Shown: in pieces, positions 18,147 through 32,501 of the stretch
Numbering within the stretch: the first letter of the stretch is position 1
How the letters are laid out: each line of letters opens with the position of its first letter
DNA from: Bacilli bacterium
Lineage (GTDB): Bacteria > Bacillota_I > Bacilli_A > RF39 > UBA660
DNA: 48,972 bases
Assembly (NCBI GenBank): GCA_017434825.1
Contig: JAFSGC010000018.1
Span: 1 to 48,972 of the forward strand
Reading direction: 5' to 3'
Translations under genes and position numbers: made by a program
Notes under the pieces: generated by a model
The model's input: the letters and a program-made list of their open reading frames with translations, nothing else
Told to the model about the DNA's origin: nothing
Database searches by the model: none

Positions 18147-19922
18147 ATGAATGAATTAATGTATCCATTTGATGCATCATTTATATTAAAGAATAAAAAG
18201 AAAATAAAAAGAGAATTAGAATCCCAAAAGATTGTAACAGAAAAAAAGATTGCAATTCTTGGCGGTTCAACAACAAATGATATAAAAAATGTTTTAGAAC
18301 TATTTTTATTAAATTATTGCATTAAACCAACATTTTATGAATCTGAATATAATAAGTTTTATGAAGATGCGATGTTTGGAAATCCCGAATTAGATAGTTT
18401 TAATCCAGATATTATTTATATTCATACAACATTTAGAAATATAACAAGTTTTCCACATCCTGCAGAAGATTCTTCACAAATTGATAATCGTCTGAATCAA
18501 GAGTTTGCAAGATATAATAACATGTGGGAAAAACTATATGAAAGATATCCTAATGTTGTGATAATTCAAAATAACTTTGAGATGCCATATTATCGTTTAC
18601 TTGGAAATTTAGATGCCGTAGATATGCATGGAAAAATTAATTTTATTAATAGATTAAATAGCTTATTTTATGAATATGCTTCGTCACATAAAAACTTTTA
18701 TATTAATGATATTAATTATGTAAGTGCTCAATATGGTTTAGAAAAATGGCATGATTTATCTGTTTACTATTTATATAAGTATGCTTTAGATATTAATGCT
18801 ATACCATTTTTATCATTTAATATTGCTAGAATTATTAAAGCAATTTGTGCTCAAAATAAAAAAGTTTTTGCAATAGATTTAGATAATACGCTATGGGGCG
18901 GAATTATAGGTGATGATGGGGTTGAGAACATCCAAATTGGAAAAGAAAATGCTTCGGGTGAAGGATATTATGAATTTCAAAATTATTTAAAGGAACACAA
19001 AGAACTTGGAATATCATTAACTGTAGCCTCTAAAAATGAACATGAAAATGCTTTGCTTGGTTTAAGTCATCCAAGTGGTGTATTGAAATCTGAAGACTTT
19101 ATTACTATAAAAGCTAACTGGGATCCTAAAAATATTAATATAATTAATTCTGCAACTGAGATGGGACTTACTCCAGATGCATTTGTATTTTTAGATGATA
19201 ATCCAATGGAACGAGATATTGTTCGTAAGAATATAGATAATATAGCGGTTCCTACATTGGATAGTATAGAAAATTACATAAAAGTAGTTGACCATAATGG
19301 TTACTTCGAATGTTTAAAAATTTCTAACGAAGATTTAAAACGTGATGAAATGTATAAAGAAAATGCAATGCGTAATGAACTCTTGACTAAATTTGAAAAC
19401 TATGAAGATTATTTGAAGAGTCTAGAAATGGTAGCAAATATTAAAGCTTTTGATGAAATGGCTTATGCTAGATTATCACAGTTAAGTAATAAGAGTAATC
19501 AATTCAATTTAACAACTAAAAGATATACTGAAAATGAAATAGAAAATGTTGCTAAGGCAGATTGTTATATTACATTATATGGCGATTTAAAAGACTCTTT
19601 TGGAGACAATGGAATTGTATCAGTAGTAATTGGTCATAAAAATGAAAATATTTTAGATATTGAATTATGGATTATGAGTTGCCGTGTATTAAAACGTGGT
19701 ATGGAAAATGCTATGATGGATAAGCTAATGGAGTCATGTAGAGAAAATAATATTGATGTAGTTCATGGTTATTATTATCCGACTGCAAAAAATAAAATGG
19801 TTAAAGATTTTTATAGTCAATTTGGTTTTGATAAAGTTAGTGAAGATGAAGATGGAAATGCTAAGTGGGAATGCAAAGTATCAGATTATAAAAATACAAA
19901 TGAAGTAATAGAGGTGAAATGA
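18147..19922 (+). CDS. FkbH-like HAD-IIIC protein (predicted acyl loading onto ACP)
   Basis: This 591-aa cytoplasmic protein has the three-part FkbH layout. An N-terminal SGNH-like region is at about 1-230 (AILGGSTTNDIKN). A HAD domain has nucleophile motif DLDNTLWGG (D244, D246), ASKN (A294-N297) and FLDDNPMERD near 350. A C-terminal acetyltransferase-like domain has RLSQLSNKSNQFNLTTKRYT and DLKDSFGDNGIVSVV. FkbH relatives take the glyceryl group of 1,3-bisphosphoglycerate, remove phosphate and pass it to a carrier protein. The position often Cys (CSKN) is Ala here. It overlaps the ACP gene and heads a cassette with an MBOAT. The substrate is inferred only. Confidence 0.9.
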   Translation: MNELMYPFDASFILKNKKKIKRELESQKIVTEKKIAILGGSTTNDIKNVLELFLLNYCIKPTFYESEYNKFYEDAMFGNPELDSFNPDIIYIHTTFRNITSFPHPAEDSSQIDNRLNQEFARYNNMWEKLYERYPNVVIIQNNFEMPYYRLLGNLDAVDMHGKINFINRLNSLFYEYASSHKNFYINDINYVSAQYGLEKWHDLSVYYLYKYALDINAIPFLSFNIARIIKAICAQNKKVFAIDLDNTLWGGIIGDDGVENIQIGKENASGEGYYEFQNYLKEHKELGISLTVASKNEHENALLGLSHPSGVLKSEDFITIKANWDPKNINIINSATEMGLTPDAFVFLDDNPMERDIVRKNIDNIAVPTLDSIENYIKVVDHNGYFECLKISNEDLKRDEMYKENAMRNELLTKFENYEDYLKSLEMVANIKAFDEMAYARLSQLSNKSNQFNLTTKRYTENEIENVAKADCYITLYGDLKDSFGDNGIVSVVIGHKNENILDIELWIMSCRVLKRGMENAMMDKLMESCRENNIDVVHGYYYPTAKNKMVKDFYSQFGFDKVSEDEDGNAKWECKVSDYKNTNEVIEVK

Positions 19923-20155
19923 TGGAAGAAATTTTTGAAAGAGTAAACAATGTTTTTCGAGATGTATTTGATGATGAAACAATCACAGTAAATGAAAATA
20001 CTACAAGTAGTGATATTGAAGATTGGGATTCATTAGAACACATTAATTTAATTGTAGCTATTGAAAATGAGTTTGGAATTAAATTTGGAATGAATGAAGT
20101 AACTGGCATGAAAAATGTTGGAGAAATGGTAAAAATTATAAAAGATAAAATGTGA
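19922..20155 (+). CDS. Acyl carrier protein
   Basis: This small acidic four-helix carrier protein of 77 aa has the phosphopantetheine attachment motif DWDSLEHINL (Ser37) and the typical IENEFGIKF helix. I prefer ATG 19922 over ATG 19919, because GAGGTG at 19911-19916 leaves 5 rather than 2 bases. It overlaps the end of the FkbH gene, so the two are probably co-translated and form a loading enzyme and carrier pair. No fatty-acid synthesis gene is near, so a dedicated role in the cassette is likely. acpS at 26430-26762 could supply the prosthetic group. Confidence 0.92.
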   Translation: MEEIFERVNNVFRDVFDDETITVNENTTSSDIEDWDSLEHINLIVAIENEFGIKFGMNEVTGMKNVGEMVKIIKDKM

Positions 20156-20176
20156 TTTACTAATAACCATTTGAAG

Positions 20177-20185
20177 TGATATAAT
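20177..20185 (+). promoter_or_regulatory. Internal extended -10 promoter
   Basis: TGATATAAT, 27 bases before ATG 20213, with a weak TTTACT 18 bases upstream. It may give the membrane half of the cassette its own transcript. Confidence 0.55.
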
Positions 20186-20212
20186 CATAATTGATACTAG
20201 AAAGGCTTTGAA

Positions 20213-21454
20213 ATGTATGGGTTGATCAAGAAATTAGGTATAACAATTTTAATATTAGTTTGTTTGGCTGCATCTTGGTCATTTATTGGTATTGTGGTTT
20301 TTGGCATTAACTTTGTAAAATTAAATCTTGTCGGAGATGACGAAATTTATATTAATGTTAATGAAAAATACTTTGAAAATGGATATAAAGCAGAAATGTT
20401 ATCAATTGATGTTAATGATCAGGTTGTAGTAGAAAATAACATTAATAGTGAGGAAGTTGGGACATATGAAGTTAGATATCAATTGTCTTCAACTTTGGGA
20501 ATGGTTGAAAAGGTTAGAAAAGTACATGTTGTTGATGAAGTAGCTCCAGTTATAAAAATATTGGGAGACTCAACAATATATCTCAGACAAAATGCTGAGT
20601 ATGTTGAATATGGATATACAGTGTACGATAATTTCGATCATAAGCTTGCGACAAAAGTTGAAATTTCTTCGAATGTTGATAGCTCTAAAATTGGTAAGTA
20701 CGAAGTAAATTATAAGGTAAGTGATTCCTCAGGGAATGTTGGCAAAGCAGTTAGATATGTTGAAGTAATTAAAAATGATTTGTTAACATCTCCTCCTGAA
20801 TTATTTAGATTTGATAATATGTATTCGGATATTATCATTAAACCTGATAATGAAGAGTATCACTATATAAATGATATGGTTATTGTGGGAGATAGCAACA
20901 TACGTTATCTATATGTGCATGGAAAATACTTACCTGCTAACCAAGTTTGGGGAAAAGATAATTTAAATGCAGTGGAGCTTACAACATCACCAATGTTAAT
21001 TCATAGTACTAATGAACAAATACTTATGAATGAAGCTTTAACAAAATATAAACCAAAGTATCTAGTAGTTTCATTTGGATTTGGTAGTGTTATGAATTTA
21101 TCCAAAAACAACTTTATTAAATATGCTGAGATTTTTATTAATAATGTTAAAGATAATTATCCAGATACCAAGTTATTAATAGTATCATTGCTACCTATAT
21201 CTACAGGAACAATGTATTCGGGATTACAAAATAAAACTAATCAATTTAATTATTATTTGGTTGAACTGTGTGCTAAACATAAAATTAGTTTTATTAATAT
21301 TGCTGATGAATTGAAGGGTAAAGATGGTTATGGTGATCCTCAGTATTTCGTATGCGCAGCTGAATATGATTGCGGATTTCATTTAAATGATAAAGGTAAA
21401 TCATTATATGTAGATTATTTAAAAAAAATAGATATGAGTAAGGAGATAAAATAA
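20213..21454 (+). CDS. Membrane-anchored Ig-like (DUF5011) and SGNH-like protein, copy 1
   Basis: The 413-aa protein has an N-terminal membrane helix (about 7-30) and two Ig-like segments: about 35-103, and DUF5011-type about 105-187 with APVIKILGDSTIYLRQ, YTVYDNFD and VSDSSGNVGKAVRYVEV. A SGNH-like domain follows (about 220-413). The Ser block is VIVGDSNIRYLY. Near the end is DCGFHLNDKG, in which the usual Asp two residues before the Gly-x-His is shifted by one, and no clear GxND block is seen, so catalysis is uncertain. A second copy lies at 24849-26093 with the same order and key blocks. It probably acts outside the membrane on the acceptor polymer or acyl product. Confidence 0.8.
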   Translation: MYGLIKKLGITILILVCLAASWSFIGIVVFGINFVKLNLVGDDEIYINVNEKYFENGYKAEMLSIDVNDQVVVENNINSEEVGTYEVRYQLSSTLGMVEKVRKVHVVDEVAPVIKILGDSTIYLRQNAEYVEYGYTVYDNFDHKLATKVEISSNVDSSKIGKYEVNYKVSDSSGNVGKAVRYVEVIKNDLLTSPPELFRFDNMYSDIIIKPDNEEYHYINDMVIVGDSNIRYLYVHGKYLPANQVWGKDNLNAVELTTSPMLIHSTNEQILMNEALTKYKPKYLVVSFGFGSVMNLSKNNFIKYAEIFINNVKDNYPDTKLLIVSLLPISTGTMYSGLQNKTNQFNYYLVELCAKHKISFINIADELKGKDGYGDPQYFVCAAEYDCGFHLNDKGKSLYVDYLKKIDMSKEIK

Positions 21455-21900
21455 TGAAAAAATTTTTAGTAATGATTGCAGTAGTTTTAGGATTAACTGC
21501 ATGTGGGGGAAATAGTAATTTAACTTCGGTTAATATTGATGATGCTGCTAAGGCATTAGATTCTAAACTAGGAAGTATGTCAGCAGTAAATGAAGAAGAA
21601 TTGGAAAGTATTTATCAAATAGATACTTCTTTAATGGAAGAATATGTTATTAAAGCTAGTGATACTGCTAATGGCAACCTTTATGCAATAATAAAAGTTA
21701 CAGATGAAAATAAAACAGAAGTAAAAAAACAAATGGCAAACTATTTTGAAATTTTAATTGAACAAAATGCTTTATACTCACCTGAGGCAGTAAATTTATT
21801 AAAGAATTGTTTAGAAACATCAATTGGTAATTATTTAATTTATATTTCTTCAGAGGATAATCAAGCATCTTATAATATAGTAAAGGAATACACTGAATAA
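21454..21900 (+). CDS. DUF4358 lipoprotein
   Basis: This 148-aa lipoprotein has signal MKKFLVMIAVVLGLTAC with lipobox LTAC (Cys17), followed by GGNSN. The mature part resembles DUF4358, a family of unknown function often found next to MBOAT acyltransferase genes in Bacillota: ELESIYQIDTSLMEEYVIKAS, YAIIKVTDENKTEVKKQMANYFE, and a late NYLIYISSED. The start overlaps the previous stop (TAATG) and the MBOAT gene begins 2 bases after its end, so all three are likely translated together on the cell surface side of the cassette. Confidence 0.8.
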   Translation: MKKFLVMIAVVLGLTACGGNSNLTSVNIDDAAKALDSKLGSMSAVNEEELESIYQIDTSLMEEYVIKASDTANGNLYAIIKVTDENKTEVKKQMANYFEILIEQNALYSPEAVNLLKNCLETSIGNYLIYISSEDNQASYNIVKEYTE

Positions 21901-21902
21901 TC

Positions 21903-23348
21903 ATGGTTTTTAGCAGCACAGTTTTCCTTTTCTTTTTTTTGCCAATAGTTTTAATATTTTATTATTTGTTACCGGGTAAATTTAAAAATTCAATTTTATT
22001 AATCGCTAGTTTAATATTTTATGCATGGGGAGAACCGGTATATATTATTTTAATGTGCTTTTCCACTTTTATAGATTATCTAAATGGTAGATTACTTGCA
22101 CAAAATAATAATGAAAAAAGAAGAAAATTATATTTAACAATTGCAATATTAATTAATCTTTCTTTATTAGGATTCTTTAAATACAGTGATTTTGTTATTA
22201 GAATATTAAATAATATATTTAATTTAGACATAGCACTTTTAAATATAGGTTTACCTATAGGTATAAGTTTTTATACATTCCAAACAATGAGCTATAGTAT
22301 AGATGTATATCGTAAATCGGTTGAACCTGAAACAAACTATTTTAGATATCTAACTTATGTATCATTATTTCCGCAGCTTGTAGCAGGGCCAATTGTAAGG
22401 TATAGCACAATTGCTTCAGAATTAAAATCTCGAAAGATTATTTTTAGCAACATTTCAGAAGGGTTTATGAGATTCCTTCGAGGCCTATTTAAAAAAGTTT
22501 TAATTGCAAATAATATTGGTATTATGTATGAACTAATATTAGCATCAGATTTTGGTACGTTATCAGTTATGACGTTATGGCTAGGTATTATTGCTTATGC
22601 AGTACAAATATACTTTGACTTTTCTGGCTATAGTGACATGGCAATTGGTATAGGTAAAATGCTAGGATTTAGTTTTGATGAAAACTTTGATTACCCTTAT
22701 ATTTCTAAATCCATTGGAGAATTTTGGCGCCGTTGGCATATTAGCTTAGGTACCTGGTTTAAAGATTATGTATTATATCCATTTTTAAAAAGTGATAAAG
22801 TTCAAAAAATGCAATCTTGGATAAAGTCTAAATGGGGTAAAACGATTGCTAAAAATATAACAGTTTCGTTAGGAACTTTATTAGTGTTTTTCTTAACTGG
22901 ATTATGGCATGGTGCAAATTATAACTTTATTTATTGGGGATTATATTACGCATTTTTCTTAATAATTGAAGATATATTTTTGAAAAAGTTTCTTCGCAAG
23001 CACAATGTAATAAGTCATTTTTATGTTATGTTTGTTGTAATTATTGGGTATGTAATCTTTAGTATTGAAGATATGACAGTATTATCCAATTATTTTCAAG
23101 GATTATTTGGTTTTGGCGGTATTCCGTTTATTAATGATACCTTTAAGTTTTATTTATCAAATTATGGTCTAATGATCTTTATAGGAATGATATTTTGTTT
23201 ACCTATATTTACAAAAGTACCAGATAAGATTAAAGATAATGCTTTAATTAATGTATTGAAGGGTATTGCATATATTGTTTTATTTTTAATCAGTATATGC
23301 TTTATAGTAAGTGATTCTTATAATCCCTTCTTATACTTTAGATTTTAG
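21903..23348 (+). CDS. MBOAT family membrane O-acyltransferase
   Basis: This polytopic protein of 481 aa (about 11 helices) belongs to the AlgI/DltB-type MBOAT family. The N-terminal FSSTVFLFFFLPIVLIFYYLLP, YAWGEPVYIILM, GLPIGISFYTFQTMSYSIDVYR, VAGPIVRYSTI and DFSGYSDMAIGIGKMLGF are classical. The catalytic His is H336 in LTGLWHGANYNFIYWG. MBOATs of this type move an acyl group from a carrier across the membrane and onto an extracellular polymer. Here the neighbours FkbH and ACP point to a carrier-bound hydroxyacyl donor rather than acetyl-CoA. The DHHW gene follows by 8 bases. Confidence 0.95.
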   Translation: MVFSSTVFLFFFLPIVLIFYYLLPGKFKNSILLIASLIFYAWGEPVYIILMCFSTFIDYLNGRLLAQNNNEKRRKLYLTIAILINLSLLGFFKYSDFVIRILNNIFNLDIALLNIGLPIGISFYTFQTMSYSIDVYRKSVEPETNYFRYLTYVSLFPQLVAGPIVRYSTIASELKSRKIIFSNISEGFMRFLRGLFKKVLIANNIGIMYELILASDFGTLSVMTLWLGIIAYAVQIYFDFSGYSDMAIGIGKMLGFSFDENFDYPYISKSIGEFWRRWHISLGTWFKDYVLYPFLKSDKVQKMQSWIKSKWGKTIAKNITVSLGTLLVFFLTGLWHGANYNFIYWGLYYAFFLIIEDIFLKKFLRKHNVISHFYVMFVVIIGYVIFSIEDMTVLSNYFQGLFGFGGIPFINDTFKFYLSNYGLMIFIGMIFCLPIFTKVPDKIKDNALINVLKGIAYIVLFLISICFIVSDSYNPFLYFRF

Positions 23349-23356
23349 GTGATGTT

Positions 23357-24466
23357 ATGAAAGAAAAAATTAATAATATAGTGTTTATTGTTTCAGTAGG
23401 TATGATTCTTATTTTATCATTGTTGTTTATCGTAAAGAAACCTACGATTTTTTCGGAAAATGAGAATCGCTATTTGACGATGTTTCCTAAACTATCTTTT
23501 GACAGTTTAGCTGGTGGTAAGTTAACTGGAGATATTGAAGATTATATAAATGATCAATTTCCATTTAGAGATACCTTGGTAGGTATTAAAACTGGGGTTG
23601 AAGTGTTACTAGGTAAAACTAAAATAAATGATGTTTATATAACTAGTGATGGGTATTTAATACCAACATTTAGTATGAATAATGATTATACAAAAATAAT
23701 AAATACTTTAAATAATTTTGTGGGTAGTGTGGATGCAGATGTATCTTTAATGCTTGCTCCAAATGCAATAGATATATATCCAGAAAAATTACCTGTTAAT
23801 GATGAACTTAATAATGGGTTAAAAGAGATAGAAAGGATATATTCTAATTTTAATTCAAAAACTATCAACATTAATTCTTCGTTATTAAATATTAAGAATG
23901 AAGTTGATTTATATTATCGAACAGACCATCATTGGACAACATATGGAGCTTACTTTGCGTATCAAGAATACTTAAAACAAACTTCAGGAGCTAATGTAAA
24001 TTTATCTGATTATAATATTAAAAGGACTGAAGGATTTTATGGAACTTCATACTCTAAATCTAATTATTATGCAATTGAACCTGATGACTTATATTTATTC
24101 GAAGATAATGTAGATTATAAAGTTAATTATGTGGTTGAAAATGTAGAGTCTGATAGTTTATATAACTATGATTATTTAGAAAAGAAAGATAAGTACTCTG
24201 TATTTTTAGATAATAATCATGCTTTAATTGAAATTGATAATCTTGATAATGAAAATGGAGTTAATATGCTCTTAATAAAGAATAGTTATGGCAATAGTTT
24301 TGCTCCGTTTATTGCTAAAGATTATGATAAGTTAAGTGTAATTGATTTGCGTTATTATAAAAATTCAGTAAGTGATTATATCAAAGAAAATAATATTGAA
24401 AAAGTATTGATTTTATATGACATTAATGGAATTTATACAGATGCTTCAATATATAAATTGAGGTAG
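23357..24466 (+). CDS. DHHW family protein (AlgJ/AlgX/DltD-like)
   Basis: The 369-aa protein has an N-terminal membrane helix (about 7-27) and an extracytoplasmic SGNH-type domain. The motif TDHHW (D190, H191, H192, W193) and the later KNSYGNSF block (Ser310 as likely nucleophile) keep the catalytic set intact, unlike the SGNH copies nearby. NENRYLTMFPKLS and YINDQFPFRDTLVGIKT are typical. In alginate and Dlt-type systems such proteins cooperate with the MBOAT to transfer acyl groups to the polymer. It is in one operon with the MBOAT gene; GGTGATG precedes ATG. Confidence 0.92.
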   Translation: MKEKINNIVFIVSVGMILILSLLFIVKKPTIFSENENRYLTMFPKLSFDSLAGGKLTGDIEDYINDQFPFRDTLVGIKTGVEVLLGKTKINDVYITSDGYLIPTFSMNNDYTKIINTLNNFVGSVDADVSLMLAPNAIDIYPEKLPVNDELNNGLKEIERIYSNFNSKTININSSLLNIKNEVDLYYRTDHHWTTYGAYFAYQEYLKQTSGANVNLSDYNIKRTEGFYGTSYSKSNYYAIEPDDLYLFEDNVDYKVNYVVENVESDSLYNYDYLEKKDKYSVFLDNNHALIEIDNLDNENGVNMLLIKNSYGNSFAPFIAKDYDKLSVIDLRYYKNSVSDYIKENNIEKVLILYDINGIYTDASIYKLR

Positions 24467-24468
24467 TA

Positions 24469-24780
24469 ATGATTGAATCTTTAGAAGATAAAACAAGTAT
24501 TGTTTTAAAAGATAGAGTATTATCATTGTTAGCGTATATATGGCCTTTACCAATTGTTTTGTTATTTGTTCCTAAAAAGAGTATATTTTTTAGAAAGCAT
24601 TTAATTAAAGGGATTATAGTTAGTATATTAGTTACTATATGGATTTTATCTGTTTTATACATAGTAAAAACACGAGTAGATATAAATTTACTTAATATAG
24701 TAAATGGTTGCTTATTTATAATTTTGATAATATTTCAACTCGTTCAATTATTTTTAATAATTAAAAAGAAAAACTATTAA
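24469..24780 (+). CDS. Small membrane protein 1 of the cassette
   Basis: I do not recognise a family for this 103-aa protein. It has an N-terminal cytoplasmic stretch and about three hydrophobic helices (RVLSLLAYIWPLPIVLLFV, GIIVSILVTIWILSVLYIV, VNGCLFIILIIFQLVQLFLII), with a conserved-looking FRKHLIKG turn. It is related in layout to the protein at 26102-26419, which has KYLKKHSKKGK in the same place. GAGGTAG precedes ATG, 3 bases after the DHHW gene. It could be a helper of the MBOAT, as DltX is for DltB, but that is only analogy. Confidence 0.65.
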   Translation: MIESLEDKTSIVLKDRVLSLLAYIWPLPIVLLFVPKKSIFFRKHLIKGIIVSILVTIWILSVLYIVKTRVDINLLNIVNGCLFIILIIFQLVQLFLIIKKKNY

Positions 24781-24795
24781 AGTTTTTCTTTTTTT
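24764..24795 (+). terminator. Terminator inside the cassette
   Basis: Twelve-pair stem AAAAGAAAAACT/AGTTTTTCTTTT (24764-24775 with 24781-24792), 5-base loop, T run. It separates the first transcript from the second SGNH-small membrane pair. Confidence 0.85.
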
Positions 24796-24805
24796 ATATA
24801 TTTCG

Positions 24806-24814
24806 TGATATAAT
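24806..24814 (+). promoter_or_regulatory. Extended -10 promoter of the second SGNH gene
   Basis: TGATATAAT just after the internal terminator, 34 bases before ATG 24849. Confidence 0.6.
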
Positions 24815-24848
24815 TTTCTAGTAGTGAAAGGTTGACTAAAGGTGTATG

Positions 24849-26093
24849 ATGGAAAGAAGAAGTAATCCTTTTTTTAATATACTAAAAACTATTTTATTGT
24901 TTTTTTCTTTTATATTTTCTTGGATATTAATTATATTTATGGTTTTTGGATCGGAGCTTATTAATATTACTCTTATTGGAGATGAAGAGTTAAATCTAAA
25001 TATTAAATATGATTATTTTGAAAATGGATATATAGCAAATTTAGGTCCAATAAATTTAAATGGTTTGGTTAAAACCAAATCCAATATTAATAATAAAGAA
25101 TTAGGTACATATGAAGTGGTTTACTATATTGATTATCTTTTAGGAAAAAAAGAAGTTATTAGAAAGGTAAATGTAATTGATGGTATTGCTCCCGTTATTG
25201 AATTAAATGGAGAAGTAAATATAGTCTTAAATAAATATTATAATTATGAAGAACCCGGATATACAGCGATAGATAATTTAGATGGTGATTTAACAAATAA
25301 AGTAACCGTAGTTTCAAATATAGATACCTCTACATTAGGAACATATAAAGTAAAGTATAGTATTTCAGATAATGCTGGTAATGAAACTGTAGTTGAGCGT
25401 TCTGTAGAGGTAGTAGAAAATAACATTTTAAGTAGTCCAGTTTCAACGTTTAGGCTTAATGGTCTATTTGGAAATGTTATGTTAGAAAAATCTGAGACTG
25501 AGTATAACTATATGGATGATGCAGTTATTATTGGGGATAGCAACATTCGTTATTTATATTTAAAAGGAAAATATCTTGAAGGAAATCAAGTTTGGGGAAA
25601 GAATAACTTAAATGCTGGAGATATTAGTACTGCTAAGATTATTATTCATGATACAAATGAGCAATTAAAGGTAGTGGATGCTATTAAAAAGTATCAACCT
25701 AAATATGCTATTGCTTCATTTGGAATAACTAGTGCATCTTTCTTAACAAAGGATGTGTTTATTCAAAAAGTAGAGGAATTCTTTGAGCTAATAAAAGAAG
25801 AATGTCCAGAAACTAAACTTGTTGTGGCTTCAATGTTGCCTGTTACTACATATCACGTAGGACTTCAAAATCCAATTAATAAATATAACTATTATTTACT
25901 TGAACTATGTGATAAACATAATATCGCTTTTATTAATATATCAGATGCATTAAAGGCCGATTCGGGATATGGTGCAGAAGAATATTTCTATTGTGCTTCG
26001 GAAGAGGATTGTGGTTTTCATTTAAGTAATAAGGGAAAAGAATTCTATGTAAATTACTTAAAAAGTGTAGATCTTTCAAAGGAAATTAAATAG
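24849..26093 (+). CDS. Membrane-anchored Ig-like (DUF5011) and SGNH-like protein, copy 2
   Basis: This 414-aa paralogue of the protein at 20213-21454 has the same domain order throughout: membrane helix, two Ig-like domains (APVIELNGEVNIVLNK, YTAIDNLDGDLTNKVTVVSN, ISDNAGNETVVERSVEVVE), then SGNH-like with VIIGDSNIRYLYLKGKYL and YCASEEDCGFHLSNKG. Both copies share the shifted Asp-Cys-Gly-Phe-His and a Cys six residues upstream that could form a disulfide. I chose ATG 24849 over 24846 for spacing to AAAGGTG. It begins a second transcript with its own promoter, ending in small membrane protein 2. Confidence 0.8.
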   Translation: MERRSNPFFNILKTILLFFSFIFSWILIIFMVFGSELINITLIGDEELNLNIKYDYFENGYIANLGPINLNGLVKTKSNINNKELGTYEVVYYIDYLLGKKEVIRKVNVIDGIAPVIELNGEVNIVLNKYYNYEEPGYTAIDNLDGDLTNKVTVVSNIDTSTLGTYKVKYSISDNAGNETVVERSVEVVENNILSSPVSTFRLNGLFGNVMLEKSETEYNYMDDAVIIGDSNIRYLYLKGKYLEGNQVWGKNNLNAGDISTAKIIIHDTNEQLKVVDAIKKYQPKYAIASFGITSASFLTKDVFIQKVEEFFELIKEECPETKLVVASMLPVTTYHVGLQNPINKYNYYLLELCDKHNIAFINISDALKADSGYGAEEYFYCASEEDCGFHLSNKGKEFYVNYLKSVDLSKEIK

Positions 26094-26101
26094 GTGAAAA
26101 T

Positions 26102-26419
26102 ATGGAAAAAAGAACATATAGCGAAAAACTAACTGCAGTTTTGTCTTATTGTTTTATTATAGGTTTTATTAATTGTTTTTCTAAAAAACAAAATAAGTAT
26201 CTAAAAAAGCATAGTAAGAAAGGCAAAGTGTTAAATTTAATTACTTTGGGATGGTTATTATTTGTAATACTGAGTTATCGAATAGTATATATACTACCGT
26301 TTGAAAATAATATAATAACGTTAATTAAATTAATTTTGTATATTATATACTGCTTGGTTTTATTACTCTTACTTGTTTATCAAATTTATTCGATTATTAA
26401 GATATTAAAAAAAGATTAA
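26102..26419 (+). CDS. Small membrane protein 2 of the cassette
   Basis: The 105-aa protein has about three hydrophobic helices (AVLSYCFIIGFINCF, LITLGWLLFVILSYRIVYIL, LIKLILYIIYCLVLLLLLVYQIYSII) and the turn KYLKKHSKKGK. It is a probable relative of the protein at 24469-24780. Each small membrane gene follows or precedes an SGNH-like copy, suggesting a duplicated two-gene module. TAGGTGAAA precedes ATG. Function unknown. Confidence 0.65.
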   Translation: MEKRTYSEKLTAVLSYCFIIGFINCFSKKQNKYLKKHSKKGKVLNLITLGWLLFVILSYRIVYILPFENNIITLIKLILYIIYCLVLLLLLVYQIYSIIKILKKD

Positions 26420-26440
26420 CATTCAACTGTTAATCTTTTT
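26409..26440. terminator. Bidirectional terminator between the cassette and acpS
   Basis: Thirteen-pair perfect stem (26409-26421 with 26428-26440), 6-base loop, with T runs on both strands. It contains both stop codons. Confidence 0.92.
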
Positions 26441-26762
26441 GTATGATTACATAACTTATTGCGTATTTGTCTTCGTGAGAAATTGATATAAAGATTTTAT
26501 ATTTATCTATCATACATTGAGGTTTATCGTTTTTATAAAAAATGTTTATTTCTGGCATAGCCATGGTTTCATTTTTAGGAATAGCTTTAATGATGGCTTC
26601 TTTAGCACAAAATCTTCCTGCGAGGAATTCAGCTTTTTGTTTGCCAACTTTTTTTTGATATAAAAGAAGTTCTTCATCCGAAAGTACCCATTTAATAAAA
26701 CTTTCATCTTTATTTTCAAATTTTTTGATTTCAGTAATATCGCACCCAATTCCTATAATCAT
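26430..26762 (-). CDS. acpS: Holo-[acyl-carrier-protein] synthase
   Basis: AcpS transfers phosphopantetheine from coenzyme A to the serine of carrier proteins. The 110-aa protein has GIGCDITEI (metal ligand D8), AGRFCAKEAIIKAI (E55) and FISISHEDKYAISYVII, all typical. It is convergent with the FkbH-ACP cassette, whose ACP (Ser37) is an obvious local substrate. AcpS also serves fatty-acid synthesis in most bacteria, and that pathway is not visible here. The gene in the other orientation shares a bidirectional terminator with the cassette. Confidence 0.93.
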   Translation of the reverse strand: MIIGIGCDITEIKKFENKDESFIKWVLSDEELLLYQKKVGKQKAEFLAGRFCAKEAIIKAIPKNETMAMPEINIFYKNDKPQCMIDKYKIFISISHEDKYAISYVIIQKD

Positions 26763-26874: not shown

Positions 26875-27576
26875 ATGAAGTTTATAGAGTTTAAAGATGT
26901 AACAAAAACTTATAGTAATGGTATTACTGCATGTGCAGATATCTCCGTTTCAATTGATAAAGGCGAATTTGTCTTTGTTATTGGTCTTACTGCAAGTGGA
27001 AAATCAACATTTACTAAAATGTTATATCGTGAAGAAAAACCGACAAAAGGAATTGTATCTGTCGGTGGGGTTAATGTAGGAAAATTAAGAAATCGTAAAG
27101 TATATAAATTTCGTCGTAAAGTCGGAATTGTATTTCAAGATTATAAATTATTACCACAGCTTACAGCTTATGAAAATGTAGCTTTTGCATTAGAGTGTGT
27201 TGGAATGAAATCTAGTGAAATTAGACCTAAAGTGTTAAAAGCTTTAGAAAGAGTAGGTTTAAAAGATAAAGTAAGAAGTTTTCCAAGTGAACTTTCTGGA
27301 GGAGAACAACAAAGAGTTTGTATTGCTAGAGCAATAGTAAATGAACCAAAACTACTAGTTTGTGACGAACCTACTGGAAACCTTGATCCTCAAACAAGCA
27401 AAGAAATTATGAATGTTATTTCTTCTGTTAATAAAGAATTAGGAACTACTGTAATTATGGCAACTCATGATAAAGACATTGTTAATCGTATGAAGAAGAG
27501 AGTTCTTGTAATTAATAATGGAATGTTAGTTGGAGATTACGAGAAAGGAAGTTATAAAGCAAATGAAAGCAATTAG
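26875..27576 (+). CDS. ftsE: Cell division ATP-binding protein FtsE
   Basis: FtsE is the cytoplasmic ABC ATPase of FtsEX, which activates peptidoglycan hydrolases at the septum or side wall. Walker A is GLTASGKST (37-45), a slight variant of the common GPSGAGKST. The Q-loop VFQDYKLL, signature LSGGEQQRV and Walker B LLVCDEPTGNLDP with H-loop ATHDKDI are complete. Length 233 aa. Its end overlaps ftsX by 14 bases. Confidence 0.96.
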   Translation: MKFIEFKDVTKTYSNGITACADISVSIDKGEFVFVIGLTASGKSTFTKMLYREEKPTKGIVSVGGVNVGKLRNRKVYKFRRKVGIVFQDYKLLPQLTAYENVAFALECVGMKSSEIRPKVLKALERVGLKDKVRSFPSELSGGEQQRVCIARAIVNEPKLLVCDEPTGNLDPQTSKEIMNVISSVNKELGTTVIMATHDKDIVNRMKKRVLVINNGMLVGDYEKGSYKANESN

Positions 27577-28456
27577 AATATTTTTTCGTAGTATAAGAGA
27601 TGCTGTAAAAAGTATTGGACGTAACTTTTCGTTGTCGATGGCTAGTATTTTATGTGTAACAATTACATTAATTATTGTATCTTTTGCGATGATAATTACT
27701 GCCAATGTTAATAATGCTACTAAGAACATTGAAGAGGAAATGAACATAGTAGTATATTTACAAAAAGATGTTACTGATGAAGATATAGATAATATGGAAT
27801 CTGAAATTACGAATATTATTGGTGTTAAAGAGATAAAGTTTGTTAGCAAAGAAGAACAAAAAAATAATATGTCTGAGTATAATAGTGCTTTTGAAACAAT
27901 TCTTAATTATTTAGACGATAATCCACTTTTAGATAGTTACGTTGTTTTTGTAAATGACGTTAAAGAGATTTCTGAAGTAGCTAAGCAAATTGATGATTTA
28001 CCAAAAGTTGAAACAACTAAATATGGTGAAGGAATGGTAGAAGAAGTAGTATCAGCATTTGATATTATTCAAAAAGGAACAATTGCTATTGTAATTGCTT
28101 TAGTATTAGTTACTGTTTTCCTAATTGGTAACACTATTAAATTAACTATTTATTCACGTCGTAATGAAATTGAAATTATGCGTTTAGTAGGAGCTAGTAA
28201 TAGTGCTATCAAATTACCATTTATTTTCGAAGGTTTAATGTTAGGAATTATCGGATCAATTATTCCTGTTTGTATTACAATTTATGGTTATGTTATTTTA
28301 TATAACACAATGCATGGATATTTATTTAGTGAAATGCTAAGGCTTGTAGAACCATATAATTTTGTATTCTGGGTATCAGGAACTTTAGTGGTAATTGGTG
28401 CTGTTGTTGGTATGTTCGGTAGCTCGCGTTCAGTAAGGAAGTATTTAAAAATATGA
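27563..28456 (+). CDS. ftsX: Cell division permease-like protein FtsX
   Basis: The 297-aa protein has four helices: one after RDAVKSIGRNFSLSMASI (about 15-45), then a large extracytoplasmic loop (about 47-165, the partner-binding region), and three C-terminal helices with YSRRNEIEIMRLVGASN. FtsX passes FtsE ATPase motion to an extracellular hydrolase. I chose ATG 27563 (MKAIRIFFRS) over an upstream TTG 27530; AAGGAAG lies 11 bases upstream. The stop overlaps the next gene (ATGA), the hydrolase likely activated. Confidence 0.94.
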   Translation: MKAIRIFFRSIRDAVKSIGRNFSLSMASILCVTITLIIVSFAMIITANVNNATKNIEEEMNIVVYLQKDVTDEDIDNMESEITNIIGVKEIKFVSKEEQKNNMSEYNSAFETILNYLDDNPLLDSYVVFVNDVKEISEVAKQIDDLPKVETTKYGEGMVEEVVSAFDIIQKGTIAIVIALVLVTVFLIGNTIKLTIYSRRNEIEIMRLVGASNSAIKLPFIFEGLMLGIIGSIIPVCITIYGYVILYNTMHGYLFSEMLRLVEPYNFVFWVSGTLVVIGAVVGMFGSSRSVRKYLKI

Positions 28457-29652
28457 TGAAAAAAGTAGTAAAATTATTTTTAATTACATTATTAACGTTT
28501 GGATTTAGTTTTAGTAAAGTTAACGCTGCAGAAACACTAGCGGATTTAAAGGCAGAACTGCGTAAAGCGCAAGCTGAGTACAATGCTGCCAATGCTGGTA
28601 AACAAAAAACTGAATCGGAAATTAATAATCAAAAGAATAATATAGCAAATGCATATAATGCCATTGAACAAGCTGAAAGTGATATAGCACTTGCTAAACA
28701 AAATATTGAAAAATCATCAGAAGAAATTGCAAAAACTAAAGAGGAAATTGAACAATTATTAGTTTTCTATGAAATTTCTCAAGGTGAAAATGATTTCCTT
28801 CAATATATAAGTGGTTCTTCTTCGATGACTGATCTAATGATGAGAATTGAAGCTGTATCTCAAGTTTTAAGTTATAGTCAAAATAAACTAAATGAGATGG
28901 AAGAGCTTATTACTGAAAATGAGAAATTGCAAATTGATTTAGCAAAGAAGCAAGTAGAATTAGAGGGGAAAATTGTTACATATCAAGATAGTATTGAGGT
29001 TTTAAAATCAGATTTATCTTCTTTGGTTCAATTATCAGCTTCTGCTTTAGATGAAATAAATTCTAAAAAAGAATTAATTGCTTCTTATGAACGAGCAGGC
29101 TGTAAGGATAACGATTTGCTTGCTACTTGTATAAATGTAAATGATACTCTTCAATGGATGAAACCAACATCTAAAGGTTATATATCTTCAGGGTTTGGTT
29201 GGAGAAGTTTCTATCTTAATGGAGTTTTAAGAAATGAATTCCATAATGCTGTAGACGTTGCAGGGGCAGGTGCTAGAGCTCCATTATATGCGGTAGCTAA
29301 TGGTTATGTTGCTGCAATCTGGTGGAAGCAAGAGTATGGCGGAAATCAAGTGTTCCTACATGTAAAAGTACAAGGAAAAAAATATACTGTTAGATATGCT
29401 CATATGTATGATGTTAATGTTAAAGTCGGAGACAAAGTTACTCAATCTACTGTAATTGGTACAATGGGTGGCGGTGGAGCTACTTTATATAAAAATGGAG
29501 GCTGGGATAAAGGCTCAACTGGTTGGCATTTACACTTAGAGGTAGCCAATGGTTGGTATTTAGAAGATTATACAAGTTACTCTAAATATGTAGCTAATTG
29601 TATTACTCCTCCGATGATGCCGTCATATGGAAAGTGGTATTATTCAAGGTAA
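28453..29652 (+). CDS. Secreted coiled-coil M23 peptidoglycan hydrolase (PcsB/EnvC-like)
   Basis: The 399-aa protein has a signal peptide (residues 1-25, cleavage after KVNA). A long coiled-coil rich in Ala, Glu, Lys and Gln follows (about 27-225). The C-terminal M23 zinc endopeptidase domain has HNAVD (H264, D268) and HLHLE (H359, H361), plus SSGFGWRSF. The layout matches FtsEX-activated hydrolases such as EnvC and its Gram-positive counterparts. It overlaps ftsX by ATGA, so the three genes form one operon ending in a terminator. Confidence 0.93.
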   Translation: MMKKVVKLFLITLLTFGFSFSKVNAAETLADLKAELRKAQAEYNAANAGKQKTESEINNQKNNIANAYNAIEQAESDIALAKQNIEKSSEEIAKTKEEIEQLLVFYEISQGENDFLQYISGSSSMTDLMMRIEAVSQVLSYSQNKLNEMEELITENEKLQIDLAKKQVELEGKIVTYQDSIEVLKSDLSSLVQLSASALDEINSKKELIASYERAGCKDNDLLATCINVNDTLQWMKPTSKGYISSGFGWRSFYLNGVLRNEFHNAVDVAGAGARAPLYAVANGYVAAIWWKQEYGGNQVFLHVKVQGKKYTVRYAHMYDVNVKVGDKVTQSTVIGTMGGGGATLYKNGGWDKGSTGWHLHLEVANGWYLEDYTSYSKYVANCITPPMMPSYGKWYYSR

Positions 29653-30452: not shown

Positions 30453-32501
30453 TTGAGCGTATTAGAGGACGAAAAAGCAATCCTAGAACAAGCTCCTGAT
30501 TTTGACAACCAAATAAAAATACTAGAGGAAGAGCATGCTCAAATCGTCAAAAAAAGGAAATGGTATATACTTATAGTAAGTATTCTTCTTTTAATTGTAA
30601 TAATTTTTGTTGTTTCTTATTCAACGGTTTATCATTATCGTGAATATGGACCTATTAGTAATAATCGTTGTGAAAATGTAAACTTGAAAATAAATGGTAG
30701 TCCTGTTCCTAATTTAAATATTACAGAAGGTAATGATTGTAAACCTATATATAGTGTTGATTACTACAATAATCGTAAACCAACGTTTAACATTGACGTA
30801 TATGGAGATAGAACATATATCTTTAATAAAATGAATCAATTAGATGCTACAGGAAGCTATTGTATAATTAATTGTGATGCTGATAGTGACGGATGGCCAG
30901 ATTATAATATTGATTTAAATGGTGATGGTAATGCTGATTTAAATATTGTTTCTAATCCTAAATTAAATCATAAGTGTGATCTTAATTGTGACATTAATTA
31001 TGATACTATTGCTGATGTAAACATCGATATTGATGGCGATGGAAAAGCAGATATAAATATAGCAGATGAAAATAGCTTGGTTCCTAAATATAATATTGAT
31101 TATAAAGGTAATAGAGAAGCTACATTTAATGTTTTAAACGGTGATGAAGTTCAAAATCAAGTGATAAGTGTTAAGGAACAACATAATTGTACTCAAAACT
31201 GCGACATTGATGGTGATGGATGGCCAGATTATAATATTAAACATCCAAATAACAATTATTTATTAAATGAACTTGTAAATCAAGGTAATAATACAGTTTA
31301 TTATAATGATAGCAAAGATATGGATTGGAAATGTTCTATTTCTCCGAATCTAAAACAATGTAAATCAAATATTAAAGTTAATGCTAATAAGTATATTAAT
31401 ATTGACGTAGACGGTGATGGGAAAGCGGATGTAAATATTTCATCAGATGGCGGCAATAACATTGTTAATCCCGTTAATAAAAAAGAGGGTAAAGTAACCT
31501 TAAATATTGATAGTAATAATGATGGTTTTCCTGACTATAATATTGATGTGGACAATGATGGAAAAGCAGATTTAAATGTAATCGAAGGAAAAGAATATAT
31601 TTGTGTAAAGAATTGTGATACTAATAATGATGGAATAGCGGACTATTTAATAGATATGGGTAAAGAGCTTATATCTATTGGCGACATAAACGCAGATATT
31701 GATTATGATACTAAGTGTGATGCAAACTGTGATACAAATTATGATTTATATCCAAATGTAGACATTGATGTAAATAAAGATGGGATTCCTGATGTAAATA
31801 TTGACTATGATTTGGATGGAAATCCGGATTTTAACATAGATACAGATGGAGATTTAATTCCAGATCAAAATTTAGATGCATATGGAACTGGAAAGTGTAC
31901 ATTTAATTGTAATGGAAATAATATAGTTAGTTCGTCTATAGCATGTACTAAGAATTGTGACACTGATAATGATGGATGGCCAGATACTAATGTTGATGTA
32001 GACAATGATGGCATATGTGATTTTAATTGTAATAATGGAACATCGAATATAGATAAAGACAATAATTATTATTTAGATTCAGAATATGATAGCGCAGCGC
32101 TTTTAGAAATTACTAACTCTAACGATGCAGACTTTTATATTATGAATCCTTTAGACATTAAGTCTGATTCTGTGGAACCAGGATGGGCTGACCATTATGT
32201 TTTAGAAGTTAAAAATACGGCACATTATGCGGTTGCTTATCGTATTGTTTGGGAAAATGTAACAAACGAATTTACTGATACTAATAATTTAGATTATTCT
32301 TTATCAAGAAGTAATACAAGCTTTTTAAATAATATGAAAGCACCAAGAGCAAGTGTTGTTCTTAAGGATAATCTTATTATTAAAGCTAATAGTAGCGCTA
32401 AATTTGTTATGAATATTGAGTTTAGAGAAACTGGAATTAATCAAAATATTGATAGTGGTAAATCTTTTAGAGGACAATTAAAGCTAGAAGTGATAAAATA
32501 G
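30453..32501 (+). CDS. Membrane-anchored Asp-rich repeat protein (thrombospondin type 3-like), likely SipW partner
   Basis: The 682-aa protein starts at TTG 30453 (AAGGAG 7 bases upstream; the next in-frame ATG is beyond the membrane helix). About 36 cytoplasmic residues precede a helix (WYILIVSILLLIVIIFVVSY, about 38-57). Then come at least fifteen repeats of the form D-x-D-x-D-G-x-x-D-x-N-I-D (DGDGKADINI, NCDADSDGWPDYNID), resembling calcium-binding thrombospondin type 3/dockerin loops, some with paired NCD cysteines. The last 140 residues (LEVKNTAHYAVAYRIVWENVTNEF) look like an Ig-like domain found in SipW-dependent proteins. A SipW-like peptidase gene follows. Confidence 0.8.
   Translation: MSVLEDEKAILEQAPDFDNQIKILEEEHAQIVKKRKWYILIVSILLLIVIIFVVSYSTVYHYREYGPISNNRCENVNLKINGSPVPNLNITEGNDCKPIYSVDYYNNRKPTFNIDVYGDRTYIFNKMNQLDATGSYCIINCDADSDGWPDYNIDLNGDGNADLNIVSNPKLNHKCDLNCDINYDTIADVNIDIDGDGKADINIADENSLVPKYNIDYKGNREATFNVLNGDEVQNQVISVKEQHNCTQNCDIDGDGWPDYNIKHPNNNYLLNELVNQGNNTVYYNDSKDMDWKCSISPNLKQCKSNIKVNANKYINIDVDGDGKADVNISSDGGNNIVNPVNKKEGKVTLNIDSNNDGFPDYNIDVDNDGKADLNVIEGKEYICVKNCDTNNDGIADYLIDMGKELISIGDINADIDYDTKCDANCDTNYDLYPNVDIDVNKDGIPDVNIDYDLDGNPDFNIDTDGDLIPDQNLDAYGTGKCTFNCNGNNIVSSSIACTKNCDTDNDGWPDTNVDVDNDGICDFNCNNGTSNIDKDNNYYLDSEYDSAALLEITNSNDADFYIMNPLDIKSDSVEPGWADHYVLEVKNTAHYAVAYRIVWENVTNEFTDTNNLDYSLSRSNTSFLNNMKAPRASVVLKDNLIIKANSSAKFVMNIEFRETGINQNIDSGKSFRGQLKLEVIK

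Follow-up and report, generated by a model that had tools for sequence, protein, structure and literature searches.

A candidate FkbH-charged, carrier-protein-dependent envelope O-acylation cassette in a Bacilli genome

The esters known on bacterial envelope polymers are made from one of two donors, acetyl-CoA or D-alanyl-DltC. FkbH enzymes are best known from polyketide clusters, where FkbH with its own free-standing acyl carrier protein (ACP) takes part in glyceryl loading (methoxymalonyl-ACP, tetronates). Polyketide-pathway FkbH enzymes have been described as using 1,3-bisphosphoglycerate (PMC7489565, PMC3679948). Pairs of a membrane-bound O-acyltransferase (MBOAT) and a DHHW-family protein have been linked to O-acetylation (PMC7710045, PMC9487903), as in PatA1/PatB1 (secondary cell-wall polysaccharide) and CcsH/CcsI (clostridial cellulose), and the PatB1-type motifs are TDHHW, KDS, and DXRY (PMC9487903). 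Here, we analyzed a 48,972-nucleotide contig (JAFSGC010000018.1, C17 in our numbering; "the window") from a Bacilli genome of 1.07 Mb in 20 contigs that is 93% complete. FkbH, ACP, MBOAT, and DHHW proteins are encoded there together, in a cassette of nine genes adjoining acpS. We propose that the cassette serves envelope O-acylation through a carrier protein that is charged by FkbH, most likely with glyceryl, and put the probability of this reading at roughly 0.6. A description of an FkbH-MBOAT envelope system was not found in the open-access papers searched. The underlying genomes are metagenome-assembled genomes (MAGs), and protein families were assigned by E-values only.

Like PatA1/PatB1 and CcsH/CcsI, the cassette joins an MBOAT to a DHHW protein that bears the TDHHW and DXRY motifs; unlike the window, those systems have no carrier or loading enzyme, whereas here the ACP lies in the operon and the MBOAT lacks PLGG. 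The polyketide systems share the pairing of FkbH with a free-standing ACP, but the window has no polyketide synthase or oxidizing enzymes, and the acyl group appears destined for a membrane acyltransferase. With the Dlt system the cassette has in common a loading enzyme, a small carrier, an MBOAT, an extracytoplasmic SGNH protein, and a carrier-type donor segment. In contrast to Dlt, FkbH replaces the adenylating ligase, a DHHW/PatB1-type protein replaces DltD, and D-alanine chemistry is absent. An initial annotation, made from the sequence alone, had drawn a one-to-one parallel to DltA-DltC-DltB-DltD. This parallel was not supported: the MBOAT scored 153 bits against the DltB model TIGR04091 (cut-off, 375), no DltD match was found in the cassette, and the transfer half is PatA1/PatB1-like. 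DltA was also absent from the window genome, whose two AMP-binding proteins are both FadD-like, and on the DltA, DltB cut-off, and DltD results we rejected filing the cassette as a Dlt system. The related expectation that dltABCD would be missing alongside the cassette was borne out, since none of the 17 genomes with an FkbH cassette had DltA over the cut-off (many have other adenylating domains).

All nine genes and the adjacent acpS were found in place as annotated, and Pfam or NCBIfam families were assigned (Table 1), with no credible match for the two small membrane proteins. The nine genes lie on the plus strand (18147-26419), with acpS convergent, and are separated by −4, 57, −1, 2, 8, 2, 65, and 8 bp. 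Because they overlap or nearly abut, a single transcription unit is likely; a promoter and terminator scan gave matches no more numerous than in shuffled sequence, none of them convincing. A second species (MAG Bacillota bacterium SIG203, locus L063) carries the nine genes and acpS in identical order between the same neighbors. Identity between the two was 71% for FkbH, 82% for the ACP, 77% for the MBOAT, and 60% for the DHHW protein, and the ratio of nonsynonymous to synonymous substitution was ∼0.1 to 0.4 for every cassette gene. By these sequence measures, the cassette is a unit under purifying selection, not a chance association. Across the family survey (117 genomes; counts ignore phylogeny), FkbH occurred in 6 genomes and MBOATs in 57, and in all 6 FkbH genomes an ACP and an MBOAT followed FkbH on the same strand within ∼3 kb. 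The conserved order that the initial annotation suggested looking for, and the co-inheritance that it required, were both observed.

A scan of a wider collection added 80 FkbH loci. Among 87 loci with neighbors, an ACP was found within 7 kb in 84, an MBOAT in 67, and a DHHW gene in 43; several loci lacking an MBOAT end at contig boundaries, and an open reading frame search found no MBOAT adjoining FkbH in a Subdoligranulum plasmid (L160). FkbH itself is rare: in a sample of 392 genomes from across the phylum, 3 had one scoring over the cut-off. Three layouts were distinguished: an MBOAT-DHHW-FkbH-ACP block in Ruminococcus flavefaciens and its kin (type A); FkbH-ACP, often with MaoC and SDR or VOC genes, followed by an MBOAT and by a membrane protein that has a GSSN-type motif, seen for the most part in rabbit-gut Bacilli and Clostridia MAGs (type B); and that of the window and L063 (type C). 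Related modules were found on a Rhodobacteraceae plasmid (ACP-FkbH-MBOAT-hypothetical-VOC) and on Sinorhizobium meliloti pSymB (L165; CP140948.1, 1057766-1063654), where five genes are ordered VOC-MBOAT-hypothetical-ACP-FkbH. The hypothetical gene on pSymB is annotated as a "TonB-dependent receptor," probably wrongly. No relatives were found in viral contigs, and a viral origin was rejected. MBOAT or FkbH frames were split at four loci (L064:12142-13684, L065:2956-4498, L066:12036-13578, and L142:10001-11783), reflecting assembly error or decay, and a contig labeled Epsilonproteobacteria (L137) encodes an FkbH 50% identical to that of the window, perhaps through a binning error.

A clue to the donor used by the MBOAT lies in the loop flanked by WHI(S/T)L and the catalytic WHG. 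The residues with which DltB docks DltC (V305, I306, M309, K312, and R317; PMC11035591) fall exactly in this segment; a count along the DltB sequence, from H289 through H336, reproduces them. MBOATs of the family with no carrier gene found adjoining, here called carrier-free, had PLGG in 21 of 21 distinct sequences, and their segment was 38 residues long wherever readable. A 55-residue segment without PLGG was present in type B MBOATs (29 rows), in those linked to DltA-like and pyridoxal phosphate (PLP) enzymes (8 rows), in genome G103, in the window, and in L063, while Ruminococcus type A MBOATs had a 35-residue segment, also without PLGG (10 rows). PLGG was thus absent from every readable carrier-linked partner; the loop motif of one further MBOAT (L035) was unreadable by the pattern used. 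The pattern recurred outside the family, where the Rhodobacteraceae and S. meliloti MBOATs and Lactobacillus DltB lack PLGG, and carrier-free plasmid MBOATs have it in five of six cases (SLGG in the sixth).

The window loop aligned with type B loops without gaps (best match, 23 of 50 residues identical), and its mean score was 101 against carrier-type loops versus 33 against carrier-free ones. Outside the loop, the window MBOAT was 56% identical to those of two carrier-free loci, L152 and L153, versus 29% to type B. In trees, which were quick searches, it sat with carrier-free MBOATs apart from the type B FkbH-linked ones; with the loop removed, the window, L063, and two carrier-free relatives still grouped (support, 96). 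The predicted structure (mean local confidence [pLDDT], 89.7), in which helices span the loop, was nearest to DltB (Z score, 29.5, against 23.2 for the runner-up). Taken at face value, the window MBOAT is an apparent acetyl-type body with a carrier-type loop exchanged in. Because the docking segment has been replaced by the carrier-type 55-residue loop, the acyl group is expected to come from the ACP rather than from acetyl-CoA, and the linkage of the ACP and MBOAT genes in one operon points the same way. The tree calls for no fewer than three independent loop switches, and all three go with carrier linkage.

The partner of the MBOAT gave its best PDB match to Bacillus cereus PatB1 (5v8d; E = 1e-25), with TDHHW, the serine, and DLRY in register. 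It had been called an intact DHHW protein; the catalytic motifs are indeed intact, with one departure considered below, and the protein is PatB1-like rather than DltD-like. DUF4358 proteins accompany MBOAT-DHHW pairs in carrier-free L152 and L153 too. On sequence grounds, the transfer half of the cassette (MBOAT body, DHHW protein, and DUF4358 lipoprotein) is best regarded as derived from a PatA1/PatB1-like module found carrier-free elsewhere in the family. The DUF4358-MBOAT-DHHW modules at L152:6487-9830 and L153:1952-4942 probably resemble the acetyl-type ancestor of this half.

This ancestry raises an alternative, that two unrelated functions adjoin: an acetyl-CoA-dependent O-acetyltransferase akin to PatA1/PatB1 or CcsH/CcsI and an FkbH-ACP pair serving another product. 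MBOAT-DHHW pairs have been linked to O-acetylation (PMC7710045, PMC9487903), and three FkbH loci (L064 to L066) each have a PLGG-bearing MBOAT-DHHW pair in addition to a separate FkbH-linked MBOAT. Several points weigh against an FkbH-charged acylation cassette. The nearest carrier-free relatives, L152 and L153, have no FkbH, ACP, or AcpS and presumably use acetyl-CoA, and phylogenetic placement alone would favor an ordinary O-acetyltransferase. Three loop switches are too few for significance in a sign test. The DHHW protein keeps its catalytic serine, yet its motif reads KNS in place of the KDS seen in PatB1 and most relatives. The substrate specificity assigned to FkbH is borrowed from polyketide pathways, and the LtaS-like enzymes of the window genome, whose presence makes lipoteichoic acid a possible acceptor there, all lie outside the cassette. 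Nevertheless, the PLGG loop is gone from the window MBOAT, and a carrier-type one stands in its place. This MBOAT is also the single one found in its genome, where neither a ketoacyl synthase nor a second carrier was found and no alternative use for an acyl-ACP is evident. Finally, gene order is conserved with L063, and an MBOAT-DHHW-FkbH-ACP block recurs in Ruminococcus. We consider two adjoining functions unlikely.

The window FkbH scored 265 bits against TIGR01686 (cut-off, 146.65), and its HAD motif (DLDNTLWGG) is kept across 85 relatives. Cysteine 512, in WIMSCRVL, was invariant in 85 of 85 relatives and is the putative acyl-bearing residue. A cysteine in the SKN motif was rejected as catalytic, being alanine in the window and variable in relatives, in contrast to the invariant MSC cysteine. 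From the FkbH family alone, our best guess for the loaded group would be glyceryl from 1,3-bisphosphoglycerate. In relatives, MaoC and SDR genes, or a VOC gene with a weak relationship to methylmalonyl-CoA epimerase, lie between the ACP and the MBOAT, and tailoring on the carrier is therefore likely there: MaoC and SDR would suit a route in which glyceryl-ACP is dehydrated to enolpyruvoyl and this is reduced to lactyl, and the VOC protein would suit C2 epimerization. These genes give some weight to the possibility that a carrier does supply the MBOAT, with a group that is another hydroxyacyl or is modified before transfer. The cassettes of the window and L063 have no MaoC, SDR, or VOC gene, making plain glyceryl the simplest prediction for the window, and use of 1,3-bisphosphoglycerate is what has been described for polyketide FkbH enzymes (PMC7489565, PMC3679948). 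We consider a group other than glyceryl unlikely.

The ACP and AcpS appear dedicated to this route. The ACP scored 23.3 bits against PF00550 (cut-off, 20.8), its scores against fatty-acid ACP models fell far under their cut-offs, and Ser38 was conserved in at least 95% of 84 relatives. A search of the window genome for PP-binding proteins, even at an E value of 0.1, gave the cassette ACP as its single match; the only AcpS found adjoins the cassette, and the ketoacyl synthase family PF00109 had no match. With no ketoacyl synthase, a sole carrier, and a sole AcpS beside the cassette, the ACP is not for fatty-acid synthesis, which the host, a gut bacterium, appears to have lost. Ketoacyl synthase was found in 2 of the 117 family genomes and not in the other 115, so any carrier or AcpS in this family flags a specialized pathway. 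AcpS was present in 14 of 15 family genomes with a carrier-MBOAT cassette versus 4 of 102 others (Fisher P ∼ 1e-13, uncorrected for phylogeny).

These data also bear on the idea that FkbH-ACP contributes to a secondary metabolite or other small secreted molecule, which the membrane genes modify or export. The usual home of FkbH is in its favor, as is a congener (G007, 1.3-Mb genome) with a second, distant FkbH-ACP pair beside a ketoacyl synthase, an acyltransferase, and an AMP ligase, in what looks like a small polyketide cluster (L034 on contig C1). However, this second FkbH is only 34% identical, and the window genome, with no ketoacyl synthase or other PP-binding protein, has no multi-carrier assembly line; we regard a metabolite as very improbable. 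An accidental placement here of ACP and AcpS genes that do housekeeping work in fatty-acid synthesis can be dismissed almost entirely: their families usually serve fatty-acid synthesis, but both follow cassettes in a family nearly devoid of ketoacyl synthase, and the concern of the initial annotation that relatives of this ACP might serve fatty-acid synthesis alone proved unfounded.

The analysis thus shows the gene content, co-inheritance, purifying selection, dedication of the ACP and AcpS, intact catalytic motifs, and swapped loop; the substrate, the acceptor, the direction of transfer, the order of events, and what the SGNH and small membrane proteins do are inferred. In the proposed scheme, AcpS would install phosphopantetheine on the ACP, and FkbH would then charge the ACP with a C3 hydroxyacyl group, for which its family points to D-glyceryl, derived from 1,3-bisphosphoglycerate, as most likely. 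On the cytosolic side, the MBOAT would accept this group from the ACP via its carrier-type docking loop and move it across the membrane. There the DHHW protein, partnered by the DUF4358 lipoprotein, would transfer the group to hydroxyls on a polymer outside the cytoplasm, either lipoteichoic acid or another glycan. The host of the Rhodobacteraceae plasmid and S. meliloti are not known to have lipoteichoic acid. Since related modules occur in these hosts, the acceptor is not teichoic acid in general and would be some surface glycan or polymer. SGNH1 and SGNH2 would probably edit or remove the ester and may move it. Both had been annotated as SGNH-like: the bacterial surface Ig-like domain passed its cut-off, but the GDSL domains fell under theirs (26 and 29 versus 32.9 bits). 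The SGNH1 model resembled sialate O-acetylesterase and platelet-activating factor acetylhydrolase at a pLDDT of 61.7, too weak for a firm fold. Two loci (L041 and L158) were rejected as SGNH-family relatives because only the Ig-like domain is common. Both annotated small membrane proteins were recovered, each with approximately three hydrophobic segments.

Table 1. Coordinates in the window of the cassette genes, acpS, and the MBOAT donor loop
Feature	Coordinates	Strand	Family or match
FkbH-family loading enzyme: FkbH_N, HAD-IIIC, C-terminal acyltransferase-like domain	18147..19922	+	TIGR01686, PF21211
Acyl carrier protein, DWDSLEH, Ser38	19919..20155	+	PF00550
SGNH1: signal anchor, Ig-like domains, extracytoplasmic SGNH/GDSL esterase-like domain	20213..21454	+	PF16403, 100 bits; PF13472 below cut-off
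DUF4358 lipoprotein	21454..21900	+	PF14270, 52 bits
MBOAT acyltransferase, PatA1/AlgI-like body, His279 and His336	21903..23348	+	PF03062, 63 bits
MBOAT donor-side loop, residues 283-332 (50 residues), matching the DltC-docking segment of DltB	22749..22898	+	
DHHW-family (PatB1-like) SGNH O-acyltransferase; TDHHW, KNS, DLRY	23357..24466	+	PF14286, 115 bits
Small membrane protein 1	24469..24780	+	49% identical in L063
SGNH2, paralogue of SGNH1 (47% identical)	24846..26093	+	Ig-like, weak GDSL
Small membrane protein 2	26102..26419	+	40% identical in L063
AcpS, holo-carrier-protein synthase	26430..26762	-	PF01648, 48 bits; TIGR00556 above cut-off

Directly after the cassette, positions 26875-29652 encode FtsE, FtsX, and a PcsB/M23 peptidoglycan hydrolase, in an order kept in L063. 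Farther on, positions 30453-32501 encode a 682-residue membrane-anchored protein without a Pfam match, whose repeats, such as NIDVDGDGKADVNI, resemble calcium-binding repeats.

A parallel cassette occurs at eight loci of the same family (L036 to L043; e.g., L037:4555-10320), comprising a DltA-like ligase under the cut-off, a LysA-type PLP decarboxylase, a carrier, an MBOAT, and a membrane protein. Like the window, these loci have a carrier-linked MBOAT with the 55-residue loop and, in most, an adjoining AcpS; unlike the window, they have an adenylating enzyme and a decarboxylase in place of FkbH and would therefore load a different group, probably amino-acyl. Their combination of ligase, decarboxylase, and carrier resembles the way in which the butirosin side chain is made, and they might attach a decarboxylated amino acid. 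A broader proposal, to which we give slightly less than even odds, is that the window represents a modular, carrier-dependent envelope acylation platform spread across several phyla. Interchangeable loaders would feed its MBOATs, FkbH supplying glyceryl, MaoC-SDR or VOC perhaps yielding lactyl or an epimer, and a DltA-like ligase with decarboxylase supplying amino-acyl groups, and an acetyl-type MBOAT could be rewired by docking-loop exchange, as in the window.

The donor-loop rule offers a way to distinguish carrier-fed and carrier-free MBOATs by sequence. How the donor is set could be probed with the window MBOAT as a test case, given its apparent loop exchange. The related module on S. meliloti pSymB makes the chemistry approachable in a tractable organism. 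If the proposed reading is true, the cassette would give bacterial surfaces a new kind of ester, formed with an uncharged hydroxy acid, and would link the chemistry of the surface to flux through glycolysis.

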